From contig QHUB01000012.1 in assembly GCA_003221035.1 (NCBI GenBank), positions 1-64,000 on the forward strand: a stretch of DNA of 64,000 bases, read 5' to 3'. Below, piece after piece: positions 30,066 through 42,344 of the stretch (its first letter is position 1; each line of letters opens with the position of its first letter). A model generated the notes under the pieces. The model did not search any database and was not told the DNA's origin. It was given only the letters and a program-made list of their open reading frames with translations. Made by a program: the position numbers and the translations under genes. This stretch comes from Gemmatimonadota bacterium (GTDB lineage: Bacteria > Gemmatimonadota > Gemmatimonadetes > Gemmatimonadales > GWC2-71-9).

Positions 30066-30629
30066 TCACAAACTTGCTCGCTCGACCGGAAATGTCCCGC
30101 GCCGGTGCCGCGCGGCTTCCGCGACGTAGTGCTCCCACGTTCCGCGAATGCGCGCGCGGAGACCGTCGTCGACGTGACGGGTGACCCGAGCAGGGACACC
30201 CATGACGAGCGAGTGGGGCGGCACGCGCAGGCCCTCGGGCACGACGGCGCCCGCAGCGATCACACTGCCGGTGCCCACATGCACGTCATTAAGAAGGATA
30301 GAGCCCATCCCGATCAGGCATTCGTCCTCTACGGTGCAGGCGTGGAGGATCACGCGGTGCCCGACCCCCACGCGCGCACCGATCACGGCGGGCTTTCCCT
30401 CATCCACGTGGATAATCGTGGCGTCCTGGATGTTGGTCGCTTCGCCAATCACGATCGGCGCCATGTCGCCGCGCAGCACCGCCTGATACCACACGCTCGA
30501 GCGCGGTCCCAGCGTCACGTCGCCGAGCACGACGGCGCTCGGCGCGATGAACGCGGTTGGATCCATTTTGGGGTGCTGGGTGGCCGGCGGAATTACTGGC
30601 GTACCGGCTGGAAGGGCCATTGCACCCAC
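30066..30629 (-). CDS. Gamma-carbonic-anhydrase-like hexapeptide-repeat protein
   Basis: Up to 187 aa left-handed beta-helix protein of the gamma-CA/PaaY/YrdA group. Visible are APSAVVLGDVTLGPRSSVWY, VLRGDMAPIVIGEATNIQD, and the metal-His positions in ATIIHVDEG and VGHRVILHACTVED, then IGMGSILLNDVHVGTGSVIA. Activity may be carbonic anhydrase or an acyl-CoA-related function; many members are untested. The start is uncertain: GTG 30629 and ATG 30620 overlap the kinase gene by up to 37 bases, while ATG 30566 (M-D-P-T-A-F) would not overlap but lacks a Shine-Dalgarno sequence. Confidence 0.85.
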   Translation of the reverse strand: MGAMALPAGTPVIPPATQHPKMDPTAFIAPSAVVLGDVTLGPRSSVWYQAVLRGDMAPIVIGEATNIQDATIIHVDEGKPAVIGARVGVGHRVILHACTVEDECLIGMGSILLNDVHVGTGSVIAAGAVVPEGLRVPPHSLVMGVPARVTRHVDDGLRARIRGTWEHYVAEAARHRRGTFPVERASL

Positions 30630-32452
30630 GCTTCGATCGGCTCGCCGTTCTTCTGAGCCGGATTCCAGCGGAGGCGCTTTGCCATCTCGAGCGCGTCGTT
30701 ATTGAAGGTTTCCACATTCGACGGCACGAACACGCGCGCCTCGACGGTGGTGCCGTCACGGGACACCTTGATCAGCAGGATCGCCTGCCGCGGAAAGATC
30801 GGCGCGTCTTCGGGCACCGGAATGCGCGTGGCGGATAAGGGTGCCGGCCGCGAGTCGAAACAGATGTTGTCCTGGTTATAGGCGGGGCCGAATGTGTCGC
30901 AGGGCCCGCTACCCTCAGCGCTTGTTTCCATATTCACGCGCATCGTGTACGTCTCGCCCGGCTGGATGATCACCGACCGCTCATAATTCTGAAAGCCGGC
31001 GGCGCGGATCATGAGATGTCGCACGCCGGAAGGCAGATCGACCTGGCCGGCGCGGACCTGCTGCCCATCGATGGACACCTGCGCGCCCGTGGGCAGGTTT
31101 TGCAGAACCAGCCGTCCAGGCGCGCCGGGCAGAGGTCCGGGAGGTTGAGGCGTCACCGTCCCCGTCGAATCGCCGTGCTGCGTCGAATCGATACCGGCGG
31201 CCAGCCGCGAAGTATCGCGGGGCGTCGAGTCGCTCACCGCAGGATTCGCCGGCTTCGCAAAAATCAAACCCTGCTTGTATGCGTAGAACCCGCCGCCGCC
31301 GAACACCGCGCTGACGATGATCAGCCACAGCAGGATTCCCGCCGTGGTCGAACGGTGTGCTTTCTCGATGACGACCGGCCCGGCCGCTGCTCCCTCGGCG
31401 CCGACGGGCGGCCGGGTGCCCGTCGCGCGCGGGAGCGGCGTCGTCGGCGCCGAGGTGATCCGCGCGCCCGGAATGGACGGCATCGCCATCGTCGCATCGG
31501 TCGTGAACGAGACGGAGCGGCCACCCTCGAGGACGGAGATCAGCTCGTCGCCGTTCTGGAAGCGTTGTGCCGGCGTCTTGGCCATCATTTTGCGAATGAT
31601 CTCGAACAGCTGGCGCTTCTCGGGGTTGTCGAGCGGCGGCGTCGGGATCTCCTCCATGATGTGCTTGTAGCCAATGGAGAACGAATCCTCGCCGTCGAAC
31701 GGCACGGCTCCCGTGAGGCATTGATAGGCGACGACGCCCAGCGAGTAGATGTCGCTCCGTCCGTCGAGCGACCCCGCCTTGGCCTGCTCCGGGCTCATAT
31801 AGTGCGGCGTGCCGATCGACATGCCGGTGCCCGTGAGCTTGCCGCCGGACGCCGCCTTCGCGATCCCGAAGTCGGTGACGACCGCGTGCCCGTGCTCGTC
31901 GAACATGATGTTGTCGGGCTTAATGTCGCGATGAACGATTTCCTTCTTGTGCGCGTAGGCGAGCGCGCGCGCGACGTCGATCAGGATGCGCCGGATCTCG
32001 ATCGGGGGCAGGCTGCCGCGCGAGCCCAGGATGGTGGAGAGCGGCTTGCCCCGCAGAAACTTCATGACGAAGTAAATGATGCGACCCGATTTGCCGACCC
32101 GATAAATCGGGATGATGTTCGGGTGCTCGAGCCTCGCGGAGGTGCGGGCCTCGCGCTGGAACCGCTCGACGAATTCCTTGTCGAATGCGAGGGAGAACGG
32201 CAGGACTTTGATGGCGACTTCGCGGTCGAGCTGCTTTTCTTTCGCCTTGAAGACGATCGCCATGCCGCCGCGACCGAGCTCCTCGAGAATCTCGTACTCG
32301 ACGTCGAGCTCCTGCCGCACCAGATCGATTTCGGCGATGTCCTGCGCCTCGGGACGGACACCCGTGGGTGTCGTGGCGGTCAGATCGAGGCCGCACGAAT
32401 CGCAGAACTTCGCGGTGTCCTTATTCTGGGTGCCGCAGCGAGAGCAGTACAT
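30593..32452 (-). CDS. Ser/Thr protein kinase with zinc ribbon, TM helix, PEGA and TonB C-terminal domains
   Basis: 619 aa. Order: N-terminal C4 zinc ribbon (CSRCG...CDSCG, 3-20) and a full Hanks-type kinase (~52-310) with LGRGGMAIVFKAKE, AIKVLPF, the catalytic loop IVHRDIKPDNIMFD, DFGIAKA and GTPHYMSPEQ. Then come a single membrane helix (AGILLWLIIVSAVFGGGGFY), a PEGA repeat domain (LVLQNLPTGAQVSIDGQQV) and a C-terminal TonB-type domain (VSRDGTTVEARVFVP, MAKRLRWNPAQKNGEP). The kinase should be cytoplasmic and PEGA/TonB periplasmic, so it could sense or contact the outer membrane. The gene follows the protease-barrel and amidase genes on the same strand. Confidence 0.93.
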   Translation of the reverse strand: MYCSRCGTQNKDTAKFCDSCGLDLTATTPTGVRPEAQDIAEIDLVRQELDVEYEILEELGRGGMAIVFKAKEKQLDREVAIKVLPFSLAFDKEFVERFQREARTSARLEHPNIIPIYRVGKSGRIIYFVMKFLRGKPLSTILGSRGSLPPIEIRRILIDVARALAYAHKKEIVHRDIKPDNIMFDEHGHAVVTDFGIAKAASGGKLTGTGMSIGTPHYMSPEQAKAGSLDGRSDIYSLGVVAYQCLTGAVPFDGEDSFSIGYKHIMEEIPTPPLDNPEKRQLFEIIRKMMAKTPAQRFQNGDELISVLEGGRSVSFTTDATMAMPSIPGARITSAPTTPLPRATGTRPPVGAEGAAAGPVVIEKAHRSTTAGILLWLIIVSAVFGGGGFYAYKQGLIFAKPANPAVSDSTPRDTSRLAAGIDSTQHGDSTGTVTPQPPGPLPGAPGRLVLQNLPTGAQVSIDGQQVRAGQVDLPSGVRHLMIRAAGFQNYERSVIIQPGETYTMRVNMETSAEGSGPCDTFGPAYNQDNICFDSRPAPLSATRIPVPEDAPIFPRQAILLIKVSRDGTTVEARVFVPSNVETFNNDALEMAKRLRWNPAQKNGEPIEAWVQWPFQPVRQ

Positions 32453-32522: not shown

Positions 32523-35375
32523 TCAGAAATCCGCAGCGAATGCGGCGTACATCTGCGCGTTTCCAGTCGCGGGTTGCGCGACGCCGACCCGGACGCGCAA
32601 CGGCAAATCGTAGTTCACCGTCAAGTCCCCGACGAGCTCCGCGCCGAACGACCGCAGCCGGTGCAGTCGCGGCTGGTCTCCCGCGTCCCACGCGTCACCC
32701 AGATCGCCGAAGACGGAGAACGCCAGTTTGTCGGCGCCGACCGGCAGGTGTCCGAGCAGTCGCCCGATCACCGTCAGCGGCACACGATACTCGGCGGTGA
32801 GTGTTGCCGCGCGGCGACCATGCAGCGCGCCCGGGTCGTAGCCGCGGACGGGAAAGGTGCGGAGCGTGCCGATCTGCTGTGAGAACCCCAGCACGCCGGA
32901 CGAAATGCCACCCACCGAAAAGAGATCCGGGATCGTCCCGTCGAGCGCGCCGAACGCGCCGCGGATGGCGAGCACCGGATACCCGAATCCGATCGGCGGT
33001 CCGAGGCGGACGTACGTGTTGCTGCGAACGCGGACTTCGTTGAGCCAGCGGCTGGTGCCCTGCTCTTCCTTGCGGCGATAGAGCAACGCGAGGACGGCGC
33101 CGTCCTGGAGCGAGACGGTGAGCGGTGCGGCAACGACGGATCCGAACGACAATGTCGCCGAGCCGCCGACGCGGTCGCGGTTGGTGCACCCCTTGCAGAT
33201 ATCGTTGAGATTGGTATCGGGGTCGGAGACGTATCTCCTTCCTTCATATTCACCGGCGAGGCGCACCGAGACGAAGCTGCGCCAGCGATGCGCGAGCACC
33301 GTCGCGCCGAGCGCCGCCTCGCGGTGTTCGGAGGAGACGACGTGGCCGGTGCTGTCGGTGCCGACCAGGGACCAATCGTTGGAGATGGAGAAGTCGAAAG
33401 TCGGATCGCCCGGCGCCTGGTCGAGAAACACGAATGACCCCTGCGCCCGCGCCGGTGAAGCCGACACCATCGCGCTCGCGACGTACGTGTACCGCTCGAG
33501 CGCGTCCGTCCCGGCCGTAGCCGCGCCGAAAAACCGGCCTGCCGCCCCCGCATTGACGCCGATGGGAATCCAGAAGTGCGGTCGCAGTGAGCCCCAGGAC
33601 GAGTAGCCCGTCTCGCGCACCGGCACGGCGGGGGCCGAGTCGAACGCGGGCGGCGCGGATGGCGCGGGCAGCGCAGCCTCGGCGTGCGTCGCTGGAGTCG
33701 GCGCGACGGCACGCAACTCCCATCCGTCATCCCCGAGCGTGGTGAATGCGATGCGGCCGTCCGGGAGCGGCGCGGGCGTCCGGGCACCGCGCGCCTCTGC
33801 GGTCACCTGTGTCACACCATCGGACTCGCGCCAGCGATGGACCTGTGGAAAGCCGCCGGGGGGGGCCTCGGTGACGAACAGGATGCTCGTGCCGTCGGGC
33901 GTCCACACGGGATCGGCGATCGAGCCATCCGCGCCTGCCTGCGCGAGCACGTCGATGGCCTGTGGAGCGTCGGCGTGCCAGCGCACGAGCTGCCAGCCGC
34001 CGTTCAGATGCCGCGCGGCGACGACCCAGCGATTCTTGCTCGCGGGAGCCGGCACCACCGGACCCCAGGTCGCGTTGGACGGCGCTACCGGGATCGTCGG
34101 CGCGTCCGTGCCGCCCGCGAGCTTGAGCGCCGACAGCGTTCCGTCCGTGCCGGTGCGCGGCTCCATCAGGCGCGCATCGGTCGTCATCCGCGTCCACGAT
34201 CCAGCGGGTGACCAGCGCCAGAGGTCGCTGCGGATCGTCCAGCGGCCGCTGTACTCGAGCTGCGCGACGATGAGGGTGTCGCCGGCCCAGTCGAAGCTCA
34301 CCTGACCGTTCACGCGATGGGACCGCAGCAGCGCGCCGGTTCGCGTGTCGATCACCCGCACGCGTCGCGCACCCCGCCAGTCGTCGTACAGATACGCGAG
34401 CTCCTTGCCGTCGGGCGACACGCGTGGCACGGGCTGAATGCGGAGCCGCCCGGCAATGAGCGTGCTCTGCGTGGCGGACTGCTGCGGTGCGGCTTCGGCG
34501 ACCGCGCTGCTCCACTCGGTCGTCAGGGCGTTCGGGAGCCCGACGTGCCGCAGCGGGCGGCCGACGCGAAACGGAATCAATTGCCCGGCCGTTTTTTCTA
34601 CGAACTGCGGGATCACCGAATCGCCGGCGCGCTCCGACAGATGCTCCCAGAAGCGGCTGCCGTAGGCATACGGCGCGATGCCATCGGGCCAGCGCGTGAA
34701 CAGCAACGCATCCCACGGCGTGCGCGCATGGCCGTACGCGGCATCGGCCGCGACCACTTCCCGGTGATAGCTGGCGTCGGCCCGACCACCCGCCGTGAAC
34801 CGGGACTCGTAATAGGTCGCCAGCCCTTCCGTCACCCAGGTCGGCTGGTACTGATTCGGAAACAGGCCGGGGGCGCGACCGAACACCGACTGCAACGTCT
34901 TCCAGATGCCCCGGGAGCGGTCGAGGTGGAAGACGTGCGTCAACTCGTGCACGATCACCAACCGCTCCCAGCTGTCGTAGGTCTGCAGCGCCGGATCGGT
35001 CACCGGAGGAACGAGCAGGATGGTGAAACGATTGGACGGGTAGACGGTGGTGAAGCCGTTCGGCGTGTCGACGTCGTCGGACAGCGTCAGGTCGATGATG
35101 CCGCGCGGCGAATGCAGCTCGCTCGACAGGAGCCCGTAGGCGCGTTCGGCTTCGTTGGCCGCGGCGATCGCGCGCGCCCGGAGCGCGGGACGGAAGTGGA
35201 CGCGGAAGTGTTGCGTGTGCAGGGTGCGCCAGGAACCTGACGGGTCTACCTGAGCGGCGGCTGGAGTGGCGAGAACGAGGGCGAGGAATAAAATGCGGAA
35301 TGCCAAATGCGGAATGCGGAATTGCAGACCGATGGTGACGACGTCATTCCGCATTCCGAATTCCGCGTTCCGCAT
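32523..35375 (-). CDS. Outer-membrane gluzincin protease / beta-propeller / Omp85-like barrel fusion
   Basis: 950 aa. A signal peptide ends ALVLATPAAAQ (~42). A peptidase domain follows, with zinc motif VHELTHVFHLD and, 35 residues after the second His, the third ligand in WVTEGLATYYES. Next are TolB/WD40-like propeller repeats (~300-570: PRVSPDGKELAYLYDDWRG, DPVWTPDGTSILFVTE, PAPLPDGRIAFTTLG). A C-terminal barrel of about 350 residues ends like BamA/TamA/FplA proteins (FSVFGDLGDAWD, NYDLPLRVRVGVAQP, FAADF). The start codon lies inside a hairpin repeat that also codes the signal peptide n-region. It overlaps the amidase stop by one base (TAATG). Substrate unknown; a surface or periplasmic protease tethered to the outer membrane is inferred. 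Confidence 0.85.
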   Translation of the reverse strand: MRNAEFGMRNDVVTIGLQFRIPHLAFRILFLALVLATPAAAQVDPSGSWRTLHTQHFRVHFRPALRARAIAAANEAERAYGLLSSELHSPRGIIDLTLSDDVDTPNGFTTVYPSNRFTILLVPPVTDPALQTYDSWERLVIVHELTHVFHLDRSRGIWKTLQSVFGRAPGLFPNQYQPTWVTEGLATYYESRFTAGGRADASYHREVVAADAAYGHARTPWDALLFTRWPDGIAPYAYGSRFWEHLSERAGDSVIPQFVEKTAGQLIPFRVGRPLRHVGLPNALTTEWSSAVAEAAPQQSATQSTLIAGRLRIQPVPRVSPDGKELAYLYDDWRGARRVRVIDTRTGALLRSHRVNGQVSFDWAGDTLIVAQLEYSGRWTIRSDLWRWSPAGSWTRMTTDARLMEPRTGTDGTLSALKLAGGTDAPTIPVAPSNATWGPVVPAPASKNRWVVAARHLNGGWQLVRWHADAPQAIDVLAQAGADGSIADPVWTPDGTSILFVTEAPPGGFPQVHRWRESDGVTQVTAEARGARTPAPLPDGRIAFTTLGDDGWELRAVAPTPATHAEAALPAPSAPPAFDSAPAVPVRETGYSSWGSLRPHFWIPIGVNAGAAGRFFGAATAGTDALERYTYVASAMVSASPARAQGSFVFLDQAPGDPTFDFSISNDWSLVGTDSTGHVVSSEHREAALGATVLAHRWRSFVSVRLAGEYEGRRYVSDPDTNLNDICKGCTNRDRVGGSATLSFGSVVAAPLTVSLQDGAVLALLYRRKEEQGTSRWLNEVRVRSNTYVRLGPPIGFGYPVLAIRGAFGALDGTIPDLFSVGGISSGVLGFSQQIGTLRTFPVRGYDPGALHGRRAATLTAEYRVPLTVIGRLLGHLPVGADKLAFSVFGDLGDAWDAGDQPRLHRLRSFGAELVGDLTVNYDLPLRVRVGVAQPATGNAQMYAAFAADF

Positions 35376-35376
35376 T
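35292..35376. repeat. Imperfect inverted repeat with GCGGAAT units
   Basis: 32-base arms 35292-35323 and 35345-35376 pair at 27 of 32 positions around a 21-base loop. Both arms are built from TGCGGAAT/ATTCCGCA units. The repeat covers the first 28 or so codons of the protease-barrel gene, including its ATG, and encodes peptide of the type FRIPHLAFRI. A similar hairpin with the same loop length is at 61724-61798. Confidence 0.8.
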
Positions 35377-37228
35377 AGTGTGCCATCTCGCGCAAGAAAT
35401 CCTGAATGCCCTTCGCAATCCCACGCGCGTACCGGAGCTGGCCCTCAGGGCTCGCCAGCATCGCTTCCTGCTCCGGAATCATCATGAACAGTCCTTCGGT
35501 CAACGCCGAGGGAAACCACGGATCGCGGGCCAGCGCGTAGTCCCCGCGTCCCATCCCCAGATCGCGAACCCTGAGCTCGGCGACGAGCGCGCGATCCAAC
35601 GCGCGCGCGAGCGCGGCGCTGCGTGGATGGAAGTAGTAGACGCTCGTGCCGTTGTTGACGAAGGGATTGATGCCGTCCGGCAACGCATTCGCATGAATCG
35701 ACACGAGCAGGTCGGCGTCGTGGTGCTCGGCAAAGTTCGTGCGCGGGAAGAGATCGATCGGGAGCGAGTCGGTGCGCGTCAGCAACACCGTCGCGCCCTC
35801 ATGCTCGAGCAAGGCCTTCACCTGCTTCGACACCGCGAGCGTCGCGACCGGCTCCCACAGGCCCGATGGTCCGTGCGCGCCGACGGGTGGATGGCCGGGA
35901 TCGATGACGATCGTGCGCCCGGCAAGCGGGTGCTGCGAATCGATCGCCGGCGGCCGGCGAAGCTCGAGTACCAGATCGCGGCCGCTCCAATGCGTGCGGT
36001 AGCCCCACACGCGACCGGACAGCGCGAGCGTAATCGTGACTTCGTCTGCGGTGGGCTGCGCGTAGCTCATGCGCGTGACGTACGGATCGGTGCCGCCGTG
36101 CTGCATCCAGTTGACGTCCGACTGGGCGCCGTACAGCCGCAGCGTGAGACTCCGTTCCTCTTCTTCTACTTTGAATGGCACGCGAGCGGGAAGCGGCACG
36201 CGCAAGACGAGTGATTTGGAATTCGCGGTTAGGCGGACAGAACCGACGATGCCGCCGGGTGGTGGGGTATTGGGTGCGAGTGGAATCACATCGGCGCTAT
36301 TTACCCAGGCGACGGCGCCGCGCGACAACTGCAGCCGCGTCTGACTGCCGTAGCGGGCCGTCGCGACCGACGTCGTGCCCAGCGGGAAGAACCAGTTGTA
36401 CGTGCCGTACGGCACGGCCTTCCCGACCGTCAGGCTGTCGCTCTTCCCGGTGTGCGCGGTGTCGTCGTTCAACATGACGACGAGTGGATGCGAACGGTCC
36501 AGCGTGTCCAGCACCAGCGGCCAGACGGCGCGCGCCGTATCGGTCCCGACGATTGCTTCGACGATGGCGTCGCACAGCGGTACGGCGGGCAGCCATGCGA
36601 CATAGCGGTCGGCGGCGGGAGGGAGGCGGTAGGCGGCGGTATCGGTGCCGAACGCGCGCACGCCCCAGGCCGGCTCCTCGGGCAGCGTGTCGGGCACGAA
36701 CCAGACCGGCGTGCGCACTCCTTCCATGCGCAGTCGCACCTGTGCGCCGGGTGTGGCGCGCACGGACAGCCGAATCCCCTCCCCCGCCGGGAAGGCGAGC
36801 GAATCGGTCGGCGTGAAGCTCGTCGTGTCGATCCACGCCATGGCACCGGTGGGCGGCCGGTACGGTTGCGCGATGCGCGCGACGAAGGTCGTCTCCTGCT
36901 GCTCCGCGCCGGTGCCGGCGCGGGCCACGATGTCGAACCGCGCCAGGGAATCGGGCGGCAGCGGCAGCCACGCGAGCCATGTGCCGCGGGGCGAGACCGG
37001 CACTGCCACGCCATTGATCGTCAGCGTGACATCGCCGCGTCCCGCGCCGACGCTGCCGAACAGGAATGAAGAATCCTGCGCCTGAATCGGGTCGGCCGTA
37101 TCGGGATAGACAACGGTGATGTGAAGAGGCGCGGAGGAAGGAGACGGGAGACGCGCGATGGGCGATGGGCTGCGTGCCGCGCAGCCCAACGTTGCCGCGA
37201 CAAAAACCGCGGCCCACAGGAGTCGCAT
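35375..37228 (-). CDS. Lipoprotein N-acetylmuramoyl-L-alanine amidase (Amidase_3)
   Basis: 617 aa. Lipoprotein signal with lipobox ending LGC (MRLLWAAVFVAATLGC). About 370 residues of beta-rich domains follow, including repeated Ig-like openings such as VTLTINGVAVPVSPRGTWLAWLP-type sequence. The C-terminal Amidase_3 domain has zinc ligands in IVIDPGHPP, the Glu in GLWEPVATLA and LLVSIHANALP, and the catalytic-type Glu in MMIPEQEAML. It cleaves the lactyl-amide bond between MurNAc and the stem peptide and is probably anchored to a membrane in the periplasm. The start at 37228 was chosen for the signal peptide; the frame further upstream runs through the divergent FHA gene. Confidence 0.87.
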   Translation of the reverse strand: MRLLWAAVFVAATLGCAARSPSPIARLPSPSSAPLHITVVYPDTADPIQAQDSSFLFGSVGAGRGDVTLTINGVAVPVSPRGTWLAWLPLPPDSLARFDIVARAGTGAEQQETTFVARIAQPYRPPTGAMAWIDTTSFTPTDSLAFPAGEGIRLSVRATPGAQVRLRMEGVRTPVWFVPDTLPEEPAWGVRAFGTDTAAYRLPPAADRYVAWLPAVPLCDAIVEAIVGTDTARAVWPLVLDTLDRSHPLVVMLNDDTAHTGKSDSLTVGKAVPYGTYNWFFPLGTTSVATARYGSQTRLQLSRGAVAWVNSADVIPLAPNTPPPGGIVGSVRLTANSKSLVLRVPLPARVPFKVEEEERSLTLRLYGAQSDVNWMQHGGTDPYVTRMSYAQPTADEVTITLALSGRVWGYRTHWSGRDLVLELRRPPAIDSQHPLAGRTIVIDPGHPPVGAHGPSGLWEPVATLAVSKQVKALLEHEGATVLLTRTDSLPIDLFPRTNFAEHHDADLLVSIHANALPDGINPFVNNGTSVYYFHPRSAALARALDRALVAELRVRDLGMGRGDYALARDPWFPSALTEGLFMMIPEQEAMLASPEGQLRYARGIAKGIQDFLREMAH

Positions 37229-37273: not shown

Positions 37274-38248
37274 ATGACCTCTCCCTCCGGCGCGTGCCAA
37301 TATTGCGGCCGGCAGAACGACGCCGGCGCGCAATACTGCAGTGACTGCGGCAAGCCGTTGACCAAGGCGGCAGCTGCGCGCGCCGCTGTCGCCGCCGGCG
37401 GCGGCGGTGGACTGGTCTCCCGCACGAGCGGCCCGGAGTCGGCGGGGGAAGGCGGCGGCGCACACGGGGCCGGCGGGGCCGGGGCCGCGGGCGACGCGCC
37501 TTGTCCGCTGTGCGGATCGGTGGTCGCAGCTGCGCGTGGCTCGGGAGGCGACCGTCGTCTCACAGCCGATCGCCGCTCCGATTACTCCCTCACATTGATT
37601 CTGGTTTCCGAGATGGCCACCGAGGTGGCGCGGTTCGATCGCAAACAGGCCACGACGACCATCGGCCGTACCGAAGGGGACATCCGCTTTCCCGAAGATC
37701 AATTTCTGTCTCCGCTGCATACCAAGCTGTCGTGGGAGGAGAACCGCCTCGAGGTTCGCGACCTCGGCAGTCGCAACGGCACCTGGGTCTTCCTGGAAAG
37801 ACCCCACCGGCTGACCGATGGTGACTTGATCCTCATCGGGTCGCAGGTGCTCCGGTTCAAGCGCCTGGGCTATCCCGGTCCCCACACCGCCGAGGCGGAC
37901 GCCACGAAGCGCATGGGCAGCATGGTGCCCAGCGCGGACATCGCCAGTCTGACGCAGCTGCGCCCCGACGGCAGCTCGCGCGACGTCATCCAGTTGTCGC
38001 CGGGCCGCGACATTCACGTCGGGCGCGAGCGCGGTGACTGGATCTTCCCATACGATCCCTCGATGAGCGCGCAGCATGCGACCGTGCGTTCCGAGGACGC
38101 GGACTTCGTGCTGGTGGACGACCACAGCCGCAACGGCGTCGCGATCGCGGTCCGCGGAGTGACGACCCTGCAGCACGGCTCGCGAGTGATGGTCGGTGAC
38201 AAGCTGCTGCGCGTCGAGCTGCCGGGAGCACCGGGTCAGCCGGCATGA
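37274..38248 (+). CDS. Zinc-ribbon protein with two FHA domains
   Basis: 324 aa, no membrane helix. N-terminal C4 zinc ribbon (CQYCGRQNDAGAQYCSDCG), a Gly/Ala-rich linker and another CxxC (CPLCGS, ~77). Two FHA phosphothreonine-binding domains follow: the first with TIGRTEGDIRFPED, SPLHTKLSW and DLGSRNGTWV, the second with VGRERGDWIFP, SAQHATVR and DDHSRNGVAI. It probably binds phosphorylated partners of the kinase encoded immediately after it, as its stop overlaps the kinase ATG (ATGA). Divergent from the amidase gene with 45 bases between. Confidence 0.92.
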   Translation: MTSPSGACQYCGRQNDAGAQYCSDCGKPLTKAAAARAAVAAGGGGGLVSRTSGPESAGEGGGAHGAGGAGAAGDAPCPLCGSVVAAARGSGGDRRLTADRRSDYSLTLILVSEMATEVARFDRKQATTTIGRTEGDIRFPEDQFLSPLHTKLSWEENRLEVRDLGSRNGTWVFLERPHRLTDGDLILIGSQVLRFKRLGYPGPHTAEADATKRMGSMVPSADIASLTQLRPDGSSRDVIQLSPGRDIHVGRERGDWIFPYDPSMSAQHATVRSEDADFVLVDDHSRNGVAIAVRGVTTLQHGSRVMVGDKLLRVELPGAPGQPA

Positions 38249-39864
38249 AGATCTGTCCTGTCTGCTCCACCGAGTATGCCGACGACGTAAAGTTCTGCCC
38301 GAATGACGGGCAGACGCTACGCTCGGCGGCGCCGGCGAACAATCTCGTGGGCCAGGTGATCGCCGATCGCTATCACGTCGTGAAAAAGCTCGGCGAAGGC
38401 GGCATGGGTCAGGTCTATCTCGCCGAGCACGTGAAGATGGGCCGTCGCAGCGCCATCAAGGTGATGAATCCGTCGATGGTGCACGATCCGGACGCGGTCG
38501 CACGCTTCAACCGCGAGGCGTCGAACGCGAGCCGCATCACTCACCCCAACGTCTGCGCGATCTACGATTTCGGGGAAACGCCCGAGGGGCTGATTTACCT
38601 CGCGATGGAGTTCATTGAAGGCGAGCCGTTGACCGACCTGCTCGAGCGGGAGGGCGCGCTCTCGGTCTCACGGGCGAGCGCCATCTTCTTGCAGACCGCC
38701 GAGGCGCTCCAGGCCGCGCACGACCTCGGTATCGTGCATCGCGACTTGAAGCCCGATAACATCATGCTGACCCGGCGCAAGGACGGCGCCGACACCGTGA
38801 AGGTCGTGGACTTCGGCATCGCCAAAGCGGTGGGCGGCGATGAAGCCGGCCAGAAGGTCACGAAGACGGGCCTCGTCGTCGGCACGCCCGAGTTCATGAG
38901 TCCCGAGCAGCTGTCCGGCGATACGCTCGATGGGCGGAGCGACCTCTACTCGCTGGCGCTCGTCTTCTACCGGACGTTGAGCGGCAAGCTGCCGTTCGAA
39001 GCGACCACGGTGCAGGAAACGATGATCAAGCGTCTGACCGACGAGCCGACGCCGCTTGCCCAGGCGCGGCCCGATCTCGCGTTTCCCGCCACGCTGCAGC
39101 CGGTGCTCGACACCGCGCTCGCGCGGACGCCGTCCGATCGGTATCAGACCGTCGCCAAGTTCGCGGCCGACATTGCCGCGGTCACCGGACGGCCGGCAGC
39201 GGGTGGAGCCCCGCATACCCGCTCGATCGGCGATATCGCAGGAAAGACACAGCTGCTCGAGACGCATCCGGATGGCGTCACGGTCAGGATGTCGGCCCAG
39301 CAGCCGCCGCCGACCGCACCGTCGCCGCCGGTCACGAAGCGCTCGCTCATCCCCGCGGCGATTGGCGTCGTCGTGATTCTTGGCGCCGGGGGCGCGTGGA
39401 TGGTTTTGAAAGTCGGCGCGAAGACCGCCGGCAATCCTGTGGACTCGAGGCGAATCGGTAACGTGGCGCACGACACAGCGAGCAACGGGGTGAATCGACA
39501 GACTGGAGGCGTGACGACCCTCGCCGTTCACGACACGGCACGCCATCCCGTTCGATCCAACGCGCCACTGCCCCCCCCGCTCCCGCCCCCGCCGCCGACG
39601 TCGGGAATCGATCCGGCGAAGGCCGATCAGCTGCTGACGGCCCTGATTGAAGCTCCGCCGGCCGTCATCCGGGATTCCGCGACGAGGATCTACGACACAC
39701 CCGGAGTGAGCCGTGGTGACCGGGCGTTCGCGGCCTGCATGATTGCGAGGGCCGAAGAAGATCTCGGCAATCACGCGAATGCCGTGCAGTGGGCGAACCG
39801 CGGACTGGCGATCAATTCACAGTTGTCGTCGTGCCGGACGGTGATTCAACCGGGAGGGTCGTAG
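38245..39864 (+). CDS. Membrane Ser/Thr protein kinase with zinc ribbon
   Basis: 539 aa. N-terminal zinc ribbon (CPVCSTEYADDVKFCPNDG) and a Hanks-type kinase (~40-310): LGEGGMGQVYLAEH, AIKVMNP, IVHRDLKPDNIML, DFGIAKAVGG and GTPEFMSPEQ, all key residues present. A Pro-rich linker, one membrane helix (SLIPAAIGVVVILGAGGAWMV, ~370-390) and a Pro-rich periplasmic region follow. The tail of about 90 residues (ADQLLTALIEAPPAVIRD and onward) looks helical, perhaps TPR-like. It is followed 6 bases later by its likely opposing phosphatase. The kinase-phosphatase-FHA order suggests one signalling unit. Confidence 0.94.
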   Translation: MKICPVCSTEYADDVKFCPNDGQTLRSAAPANNLVGQVIADRYHVVKKLGEGGMGQVYLAEHVKMGRRSAIKVMNPSMVHDPDAVARFNREASNASRITHPNVCAIYDFGETPEGLIYLAMEFIEGEPLTDLLEREGALSVSRASAIFLQTAEALQAAHDLGIVHRDLKPDNIMLTRRKDGADTVKVVDFGIAKAVGGDEAGQKVTKTGLVVGTPEFMSPEQLSGDTLDGRSDLYSLALVFYRTLSGKLPFEATTVQETMIKRLTDEPTPLAQARPDLAFPATLQPVLDTALARTPSDRYQTVAKFAADIAAVTGRPAAGGAPHTRSIGDIAGKTQLLETHPDGVTVRMSAQQPPPTAPSPPVTKRSLIPAAIGVVVILGAGGAWMVLKVGAKTAGNPVDSRRIGNVAHDTASNGVNRQTGGVTTLAVHDTARHPVRSNAPLPPPLPPPPPTSGIDPAKADQLLTALIEAPPAVIRDSATRIYDTPGVSRGDRAFAACMIARAEEDLGNHANAVQWANRGLAINSQLSSCRTVIQPGGS

Positions 39865-39870
39865 CGCCGC

Positions 39871-40908
39871 ATGTTCGGACGCAACAAGGCCGTGCGCGTC
39901 GAGGTCTTCGCCAAGACCGATCTGGGTCGCACGCGCGATCACAACGAGGACCGCTTCCTCGTCGCGGATCTTTCGCGCAAATCGGCGTCGCTGCTGCCCG
40001 AAGTGCGCCAGCACGACATCGGCCCGCGCGGCACCCTGCTCGTCGTGGCGGACGGCATGGGCGGCGCGGCGGCCGGCGAGGTCGCCAGCGAGATGGCGAC
40101 CGATACGATTTACGCACATCTCGTGAAGACGTGGAACGCCGAGGACGAAGTCACGCCGCAGCGCTTCGCCTATCGGCTGAAAGAGGCGGTGGAAGTGGCG
40201 AACGCGAGCATCCACGCGCATGCGAAGGCGCATCCCGAAGTGCGCGGGATGGGCACCACCACAACGGCCGCCGGCGTCCTCAACGATCACCTCTATCTCA
40301 CGCAGGTCGGTGACAGCCGCGCCTACCTGATTCGCAACGGGCAGGCGCATCAGATCACGAAGGATCAGTCGCTGATGCAGCGGCTGGTCGAGGCCGGGGA
40401 GCTCACCGAAGAAGAGGCGGCACAGAGCGAGCGGCGCAACATCATTCTCCAGGCGCTCGGTCCCGATCCCAAGGTCAAAGTCGATCTCACGCATCAGGAG
40501 GTGCGGCGCCGCGACGTCCTGGTGCTCTGCTCCGACGGGCTGTCCGGACAGGTAAAGAAGGAAGAGATCGCCCAGGTCGTGAGCACGACACCGGACCTGA
40601 GCGCGGCGTGCGACAAGCTCATCGCGATGGCCAACGAGCGCGGCGGCCCCGACAACATCACGGTCGTGATCGCGCGCTTCGACGGCGATGGCCTGCGTTT
40701 CTCCGACGGCGGCCCGCAGGACGACGTGGGACATCAGGTCTACCCGCTCATCGACACTGAGACGAGCACGGAGCCGGTGCCGGTGTACAAGGGCAGCCGG
40801 CCGCCGGTGCCCAACCGGGAGAAGAACAGCTCGGGCACGCGGGTCATCGTGCTCGCCGCGCTTGCCGTCGCCGCCATCGTCGTCTGGTACCTCACGCGGA
40901 ATCAGTGA
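39871..40908 (+). CDS. PP2C-type Ser/Thr protein phosphatase, membrane anchored
   Basis: 345 aa metal-dependent phosphatase. PP2C motifs are DLGRTRDHNEDRFLVAD (metal Asp), VVADGMGGAAAGE, VGDSRAYLIRNG, VLCSDGLSG and GGPDNITVVIARF. It ends in a basic stretch and a C-terminal helix (VIVLAALAVAAIVVWYL), so the catalytic part faces the cytoplasm. Expected to dephosphorylate the kinase and FHA-bound proteins encoded beside it. Its stop overlaps the GTG start of the FHA-protease gene by 4 bases. Confidence 0.95.
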   Translation: MFGRNKAVRVEVFAKTDLGRTRDHNEDRFLVADLSRKSASLLPEVRQHDIGPRGTLLVVADGMGGAAAGEVASEMATDTIYAHLVKTWNAEDEVTPQRFAYRLKEAVEVANASIHAHAKAHPEVRGMGTTTTAAGVLNDHLYLTQVGDSRAYLIRNGQAHQITKDQSLMQRLVEAGELTEEEAAQSERRNIILQALGPDPKVKVDLTHQEVRRRDVLVLCSDGLSGQVKKEEIAQVVSTTPDLSAACDKLIAMANERGGPDNITVVIARFDGDGLRFSDGGPQDDVGHQVYPLIDTETSTEPVPVYKGSRPPVPNREKNSSGTRVIVLAALAVAAIVVWYLTRNQ

Positions 40909-42344
40909 AAGCCCAATTCAAATTCTTGTCGGGCGCCCGCGCGGGACAGAGCGAAACCTTCCGCAAGGGCTACATCGGGCTTGGCCGTCATCCGCTCTCG
41001 GATGTGCGGTTTGATGCGGAGCGCGATCTCGACGTCTCCTCGCGCCATGCCGCGGTCGTGCGCAAGGCGGAAGGCTTTGTGCTGCAGGATCTGGTGAGCC
41101 GCAACGGCACGTTCGTCAACGGCACGCGCATCAGCGGCGATACGGTCCTGAAACGCGGCGACGTCATCGGTTTCGGTTCGAATGGTCCCGCGCTGGAATT
41201 CCAGGTTGTCGAGAGCGACGAGGACACGACCGCGTCCGCGGAAGCGCTGGCGGAGCGTGTGTCCTCGCCGCGGGACGTGATGCCTGCCGCGCGCGCGTCC
41301 GCCGCGCCGCGCGCCACCGGGCCACGCCAGAGCACCGGCGTGCGCATTGCGGCCGAAGTAGCGCGCCAGACGGCGCACCTCCGACGCGCGACCAAGATCC
41401 TGATCGTGCTGCTGCTCTTCGTCGGCACGGGCTTCACCTGGATGCAATGGGACGGGCGCCGGCGCACGAACGAGCTCCTGCAGCTGCAGCAGCGCGCCGA
41501 CAGCCTCAGCGCCGCATCGCACGCGTTGACGGCACAATTCCAGACCGAGCTGCAGGGCGTGCGTGTGGCGCTGCATGCCTCGCAGGACGAGACGGCGCGG
41601 CTGCGTCGCGAGCTGGCCGGTTCCAGCGGCGACGCGTCATCGGTCGCCCGGCTCCGCCGGGAGCTGGATGCGGCGGAGCGACGGCAACGCGCGCTGGCCG
41701 GCGCCGTGGGCGGCGTCGATTACCGCGCGATCTCGCACAAGAATCAGGATGCGGTCGCGATGGTGCTGGTCGAGTACGCCGACGGCGAGCGGTACAGCGG
41801 CACCGCGTTCGCCGTAGACTCGCAAGGCACGATGGTTACGAACAAACACATCCTCGTCGGTGAGGACGGCACCAAGACGCCGCGCCGGCTCGGCGTGATC
41901 TTCTCGGGTAGTACGCAGTTTTGGCGCGCCGACGTGATCGGCGTGTCGACGGAGACCGATGTCGGTGTGTTCCGTGTAACGATCAAGGGCGGCACTCCCC
42001 GTGTGGCGGGCCTGGCCCGGACACGCGAAGGGCTCGAGCGCGGCGACCCGGTCGCCATTCTGGGCTATCCGCTGGGGTTCGATCTCCCGATGGAGGCGCA
42101 GGGAGGCCAGCCGATCGCCGAGCCGACGCTGACCGTGGGGACCGTGAGCAAGTCGCTGTCCTCGGTCGTGCAGGTTGACGCGTACGGCGCCCCGGGGTCG
42201 TCGGGGAGTCCGATCTTCGATCGTGACGGCAAGGTCATCGCGGTGCTGTACGGCGGAGAACGCGAATCGAACGGCAAGATCATCTTCGGCGTGCCGGCAT
42301 ATCAAGTAGCGGATTATCTCAAGACCCTCAACCTGGCGCGCTAA
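40905..42344 (+). CDS. FHA domain-TM-coiled coil-trypsin-like serine protease
   Basis: 479 aa. Cytoplasmic FHA domain (YIGLGRHPLSDVRFD, SSRHAAVV, DLVSRNGTFVNGTRI; ~20-80), a linker, and one membrane helix (TKILIVLLLFVGTGFTWMQW, ~162-181). An Ala/Arg/Leu coiled coil (~185-260) follows, then a chymotrypsin-fold protease (~275-470). The triad is visible: His in MVTNKHILVG, Asp in TETDVGVFRV, Ser in APGSSGSPIF. There is no PDZ domain, unlike HtrA. The layout suggests that phosphorylated cytoplasmic partners recruited by FHA control a periplasmic protease. GTG start overlaps the phosphatase stop; the hydrolase gene follows one base after the stop. Confidence 0.92.
   Translation: MKAQFKFLSGARAGQSETFRKGYIGLGRHPLSDVRFDAERDLDVSSRHAAVVRKAEGFVLQDLVSRNGTFVNGTRISGDTVLKRGDVIGFGSNGPALEFQVVESDEDTTASAEALAERVSSPRDVMPAARASAAPRATGPRQSTGVRIAAEVARQTAHLRRATKILIVLLLFVGTGFTWMQWDGRRRTNELLQLQQRADSLSAASHALTAQFQTELQGVRVALHASQDETARLRRELAGSSGDASSVARLRRELDAAERRQRALAGAVGGVDYRAISHKNQDAVAMVLVEYADGERYSGTAFAVDSQGTMVTNKHILVGEDGTKTPRRLGVIFSGSTQFWRADVIGVSTETDVGVFRVTIKGGTPRVAGLARTREGLERGDPVAILGYPLGFDLPMEAQGGQPIAEPTLTVGTVSKSLSSVVQVDAYGAPGSSGSPIFDRDGKVIAVLYGGERESNGKIIFGVPAYQVADYLKTLNLAR

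Follow-up and report, generated by a model that had tools for sequence, protein, structure and literature searches.

A WD40-Omp85-type protein with a putative zinc metalloprotease domain, conserved in Gemmatimonadota and usually encoded after a peptidoglycan amidase gene

The locus described here belongs to a Gemmatimonadota soil bacterium, whose assembly (3.36 Mb) is 98.7% complete, and was analysed within a stretch of 64,000 nucleotides, hereafter the window. Translation of positions 32523-35375 on the minus strand yields a protein of 950 residues, while the plus frame of the same interval is interrupted by stops; the initial annotation had thus placed the gene at the correct coordinates, and its strand is minus. 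The protein begins with a signal-like N-terminus and continues with a gluzincin-type domain, a TolB-like propeller and an Omp85-type barrel. Its upstream neighbour encodes an amidase. The features are as follows.

32523-35375, minus strand: whole gene, coding for a signal-like N-terminus, gluzincin-type domain, six-blade-like propeller and Omp85-type barrel (translation; 26-sequence ortholog alignment A1)
35253-35375, minus strand: signal-peptide-like N-terminus, residues 1-41 (inspection shows a hydrophobic core and AxA|Q)
34476-35252, minus strand: gluzincin-type domain, probably of clan MA, residues 42-300
34935-34949, minus strand: HELTH, residues 143-147, with two proposed zinc ligands (H143, H147) and the proposed catalytic Glu (E144)
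34827-34829, minus strand: Glu183 in WVTEGLA, proposed third zinc ligand
33621-34475, minus strand: TolB-like (PD40) propeller, residues ~301-585
32526-33620, minus strand: Omp85-type outer-membrane barrel, residues ~586-950, with a C-terminal Phe
32838-32849, minus strand: loop-6 signature VRGY, residues 843-846
32697-32711, minus strand: strand-13 signature FGDLG, residues 889-893, holding the expected salt-bridge partner of R844
35375-37228, minus strand: Amidase_3 (N-acetylmuramoyl-L-alanine amidase), 617 aa, upstream neighbour

Full-length alignment was obtained with 25 orthologs of 30-77% identity, which together with the query make up the set of 26 sequences used throughout. Conservation down to 30% identity in this set rules out a chance open reading frame. 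In a phylum-wide profile search (E<=1e-30), the family was present in 265 of 395 sampled Gemmatimonadota genomes, mostly as full-length matches and one per genome, and all named records with full-length relatives are from Gemmatimonadota. The single sequence is much less informative. Pfam detected neither its protease nor its barrel, phmmer returned no match in the PDB, and AlphaFold models, with a mean pLDDT of 34.5 from the single sequence and 35.5 with five sequences, were too unreliable to show barrel closure or metal-site geometry. Motifs, profiles and ortholog conservation nevertheless support the proposal that one chain joins three parts.

Three further proteins of the same layout are encoded in the host genome (G000 C38, C64 and C113; L062, L063 and L064, respectively), and this recurrence within one genome indicates that the design is common within Gemmatimonadota. 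Each carries a signal-like N-terminus, an HExxH...EG motif, a PD40 propeller and an Omp85-type barrel. They share this layout with the 950-residue protein but are distant from it in sequence (31% over the protease domain for C38). L062 and L063 lie above the Pfam cut-off for Omp85 (PF01103). L063 also matches PF04450 at 25.1 bits, just above the cut-off of 23.8, and L064 matches PF13485 at 26 bits, below the cut-off of 32.4. Each of the 46 genomes searched contains C38-type matches.

Gluzincins are recognized by an HExxH motif followed by a downstream Glu. The HELTH motif with a third Glu 35 residues later, as first proposed for this protein, is borne out by the alignment: H147 and E183 are separated by 35 residues, and none of the 26 sequences departs from H143, E144, H147 or E183. 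The HExxH...EGxA pattern is also retained in 18 of 18 members drawn mostly from deeper branches. In a profile comparison with hhalign, the N-terminal domains of the C38-type paralogs match the protease domain at P 1.2e-19. The domain probably belongs to clan MA and is probably a zinc protease; this assignment rests on the motif, its conservation and the paralogs because the protein itself, searched as a single sequence, matches no curated peptidase family in Pfam (DUF1570, E 0.18). PF00149, the calcineurin-like phosphoesterase of Pfam, had no match in a domain search of the 26 members, the 950-residue protein included.

The propeller is the only part that a single-sequence search detects, with one PD40 blade scoring at E 2.4e-7 in Pfam. 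PD40 scored in all 26 members, and the 26-sequence profile matched TolB structures at 3.4e-24, upholding the earlier description of TolB-like propeller repeats. Blade-like motifs occur near residues 320, 362, 404, 442, 491 and 537, with a spacing of ~45 residues. This gives six blades by eye, the same number as in TolB, although a count by eye is not proof.

The C-terminal region bears the hallmarks of an Omp85 lid-lock, in which the loop-6 Arg of a (V/I)RG(F/Y) motif bridges the Asp of a strand-13 (F/G)xDxG motif (PMC7644211); in CdiB, the lid-lock adds a strand-12 Glu (PMC7644211). The Omp85 loop-6 motif, put forward at the outset as a check, was found as VRGY at 843-846. R844 and G845 are invariant in 26 of 26 sequences, position 846 is Y or F in 25 of 26, and position 843 is V or I in 20 of 26 and L or A in the rest. 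Glu862 is likewise invariant (26/26). In the strand-13 motif, all 26 sequences have F889; at position 891, 22 have D and 4 have E, and at the last position 22 have G and 4 have A. The barrel also matches the barrels of the C38-type paralogs at P 8.4e-8 over 296 columns in hhalign, against 0.09 for a reversed control. Direct comparison with the BamA-type profile of the same genome is weak (P 0.0045, 37 columns), and the NCBIfam model of Deinococcus-type BamA matches 13 of the 26 members, also weakly. The tie to accepted Omp85 members therefore runs via the paralogs, which pass PF01103.

Taken together, the lid-lock motifs and the paralog profile match support assignment of this region to the Omp85/BamA superfamily of barrels, in line with the proposed resemblance to BamA and TamA. 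The term "pore" used in the initial annotation fits less well, as the lid-lock motifs predict that loop 6, like that of other Omp85 proteins, is folded into the barrel lumen (PMC7644211). A strand count based on amphipathicity, aimed at the 16 strands expected of a closed barrel, failed to separate the barrel region from a POTRA control. The domain search found no POTRA match in any of the 26 members, consistent with the suggested absence of this domain. A classical autotransporter was considered and rejected, Omp85 motifs being present instead.

The upstream gene encodes an Amidase_3 protein (PF01520, E 8.1e-30) with a lipoprotein-like N-terminus, and its TAA stop shares one base with the ATG of the protease gene (TAATG). 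In 34 of 42 assessable genomes, spanning several families, such an amidase gene immediately precedes the protease gene in the same orientation, and in 8 of 42 it does not; four further loci, left unresolved, lie outside the 42. In the eight unlinked protease genomes, a search at E<=1e-10 found no amidase of this type adjacent or elsewhere. Conversely, nine genomes with no detected protease of this family retain this amidase type. The host genome contains one other Amidase_3 gene, and in the genomes whose synteny was examined no Amidase_3 gene was found beside the C38-type paralog.

In one draft genome, amidase and protease-propeller-barrel occupy a single frame of 1804 aa (L150, G001:C15, 573-5984). 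Compared with the window, the two parts are joined by the loss of 245 bases, which removed the amidase end, and TEGLF reads TDGLC. The amidase half of the fusion may be decaying, and as this is also a single draft genome, the fusion was not accepted as strong evidence.

A signalling cluster flanks the locus at 37274-42344 (plus strand) and 30593-32452 (minus strand). Two of its genes encode zinc-ribbon Ser/Thr kinases, and one of these kinases has PEGA and TonB_C-like parts; a PP2C-like phosphatase and an FHA-like protein were recognized by inspection. The gene order of the cluster is the same in the close relatives L035 and L036. A downstream zinc-ribbon Ser/Thr kinase gene is present in the four close relatives with sufficient flank.

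Ten Omp85/TpsB subfamilies were defined by Heinz & Lithgow in 2014, and according to the main text of that paper the WD40-Omp85 subfamily has an N-terminal TolB-like propeller and an Omp85 barrel without POTRA (PMC4104836). The 950-residue protein displays all of these traits, so it is best regarded as a variant of this published architecture and not as categorically new. The original proposal that a propeller replacing POTRA would set the protein apart does not hold, since WD40-Omp85 proteins already have this arrangement. What the protein adds is a gluzincin domain before the propeller and, at the gene level, an amidase neighbourhood. Neither appears in the main text of PMC4104836, and the gluzincin domain may already be present in the sequences of that study.

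Several enzyme-barrel systems offer points of comparison. The "Metallo" Omp85 subfamily, defined by PF00149 according to the main text of PMC4104836, likewise unites an enzyme with an Omp85 barrel, but its defining domain is missing from the 950-residue protein. PlpD (type Vd) is the best-studied enzyme-Omp85 fusion, and experiments have placed its N-terminal enzyme domain in the periplasm (PMC11116518). The present protein also fuses an enzyme domain to an Omp85 barrel; PlpD, however, has a patatin lipase and POTRA, whereas here a gluzincin and a propeller occur without POTRA. BepA of E. coli, an M48 protease (PMC8423444), is a zinc metalloprotease of the periplasm that works with BAM, an Omp85 barrel machine, and a comparable setting is proposed here. 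Since BepA is a separate protein, unfused to the barrel, this likeness is a functional analogy only.

The architecture, the metal-site and lid-lock residues, the phylum-wide conservation and the usual place after an amidase gene can be stated plainly because they are read from the sequences themselves. From these, we arrive with roughly even confidence at an outer-membrane WD40-Omp85-type protein whose putative zinc metalloprotease and propeller face the periplasm and act on envelope substrates. The protein would be exported by the Sec pathway and inserted by BAM, with protease and propeller remaining on the periplasmic side. This topology is suggested by analogy, because the enzyme domain of PlpD is periplasmic (PMC11116518) and the gene neighbour is an amidase. 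The propeller may serve as a platform recruiting or gating substrates or partners, while the protease would work at the outer membrane's inner face, cutting envelope proteins there. The outcome would be envelope processing or quality control following a BepA-like logic, alongside the amidase in cell-wall remodelling.

Were the barrel instead to export protease and propeller through the outer membrane, the protein would be a surface enzyme acting outside the cell in a type V-like manner. Protein translocation is a function of some Omp85/TpsB barrels, and it was also the first interpretation of PlpD (PMC4104836). Yet the PlpD enzyme domain has since been shown to be periplasmic (PMC11116518), the usual neighbour gene here codes for a peptidoglycan amidase, and the propeller would itself need to traverse the barrel, all of which make a surface location unlikely. 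A closer tie to the neighbour is conceivable, with the protease maturing, activating or removing the Amidase_3 protein encoded upstream. Such a dedicated partnership would agree with the adjacency in 34 of 42 genomes from several families, the TAATG overlap in the window and the single G001 frame. Many genomes, however, have one gene without the other, and the G001 fusion, with its deleted amidase end and TDGLC for TEGLF, may be in decay. The two genes come apart in evolution, which favours a general role in envelope processing or quality control; maturation of the amidase as a dedicated task is considered improbable.

It is hardly likely that the protease fold is a scaffold only, within a BamA-BamB-like fusion that aids insertion of outer-membrane proteins. 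Heinz & Lithgow do liken WD40-Omp85 to a BamA-BamB fusion (PMC4104836, main text), but the host genome already has a distinct BamA-type gene, and H143, E144, H147 and E183 would be unnecessary in a scaffold; their invariance therefore disfavours this reading.

A periplasm-facing protease acting on envelope substrates is thus the preferred reading, and it has a more specific extension that we regard as doubtful. The family could form a phylum-wide Omp85 class in which a tethered periplasmic zinc protease couples the state of the outer membrane to peptidoglycan cutting by the neighbouring amidase. If true, this would amount to a protease-based link between outer membrane and peptidoglycan in Gemmatimonadota. 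Such coupling is not obligate, as amidase and protease each occur without the other. The family is likely to represent a substantial part of Gemmatimonadota envelope biology, because 265 of 395 genomes carry it and its design recurs in paralogs. It brings a putative active protease and a conserved gene neighbour to the WD40 type, which makes function testable.

The signal-like N-terminus is probably cleaved at ATPAAA|Q42, judged by inspection, and part of its coding sequence is a repeat. A dispersed palindromic repeat of GAATKCSG-like heptads lies at the amidase-protease junction (35292-35376), with inverted arms at 35292-35322 and 35346-35376. It codes for the first ~30 residues of the protease-propeller-barrel protein, supplying the apparent start codon and the N-region of the signal peptide (MRNAEFGMRN...QFRIPHLAFRI). 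In its 20-mer form, the repeat has 188 strand matches genome-wide at <=3 mismatches, as compared with 1 for a reversed-pattern control. Repeat-like sequence occurs at the same site in two relatives (L006 and L010) and is absent there in others. Further matches to the N-terminus encoded by the repeat occur in other Gemmatimonadota and in two contigs of Gemmataceae (Planctomycetota) (L039-L045).
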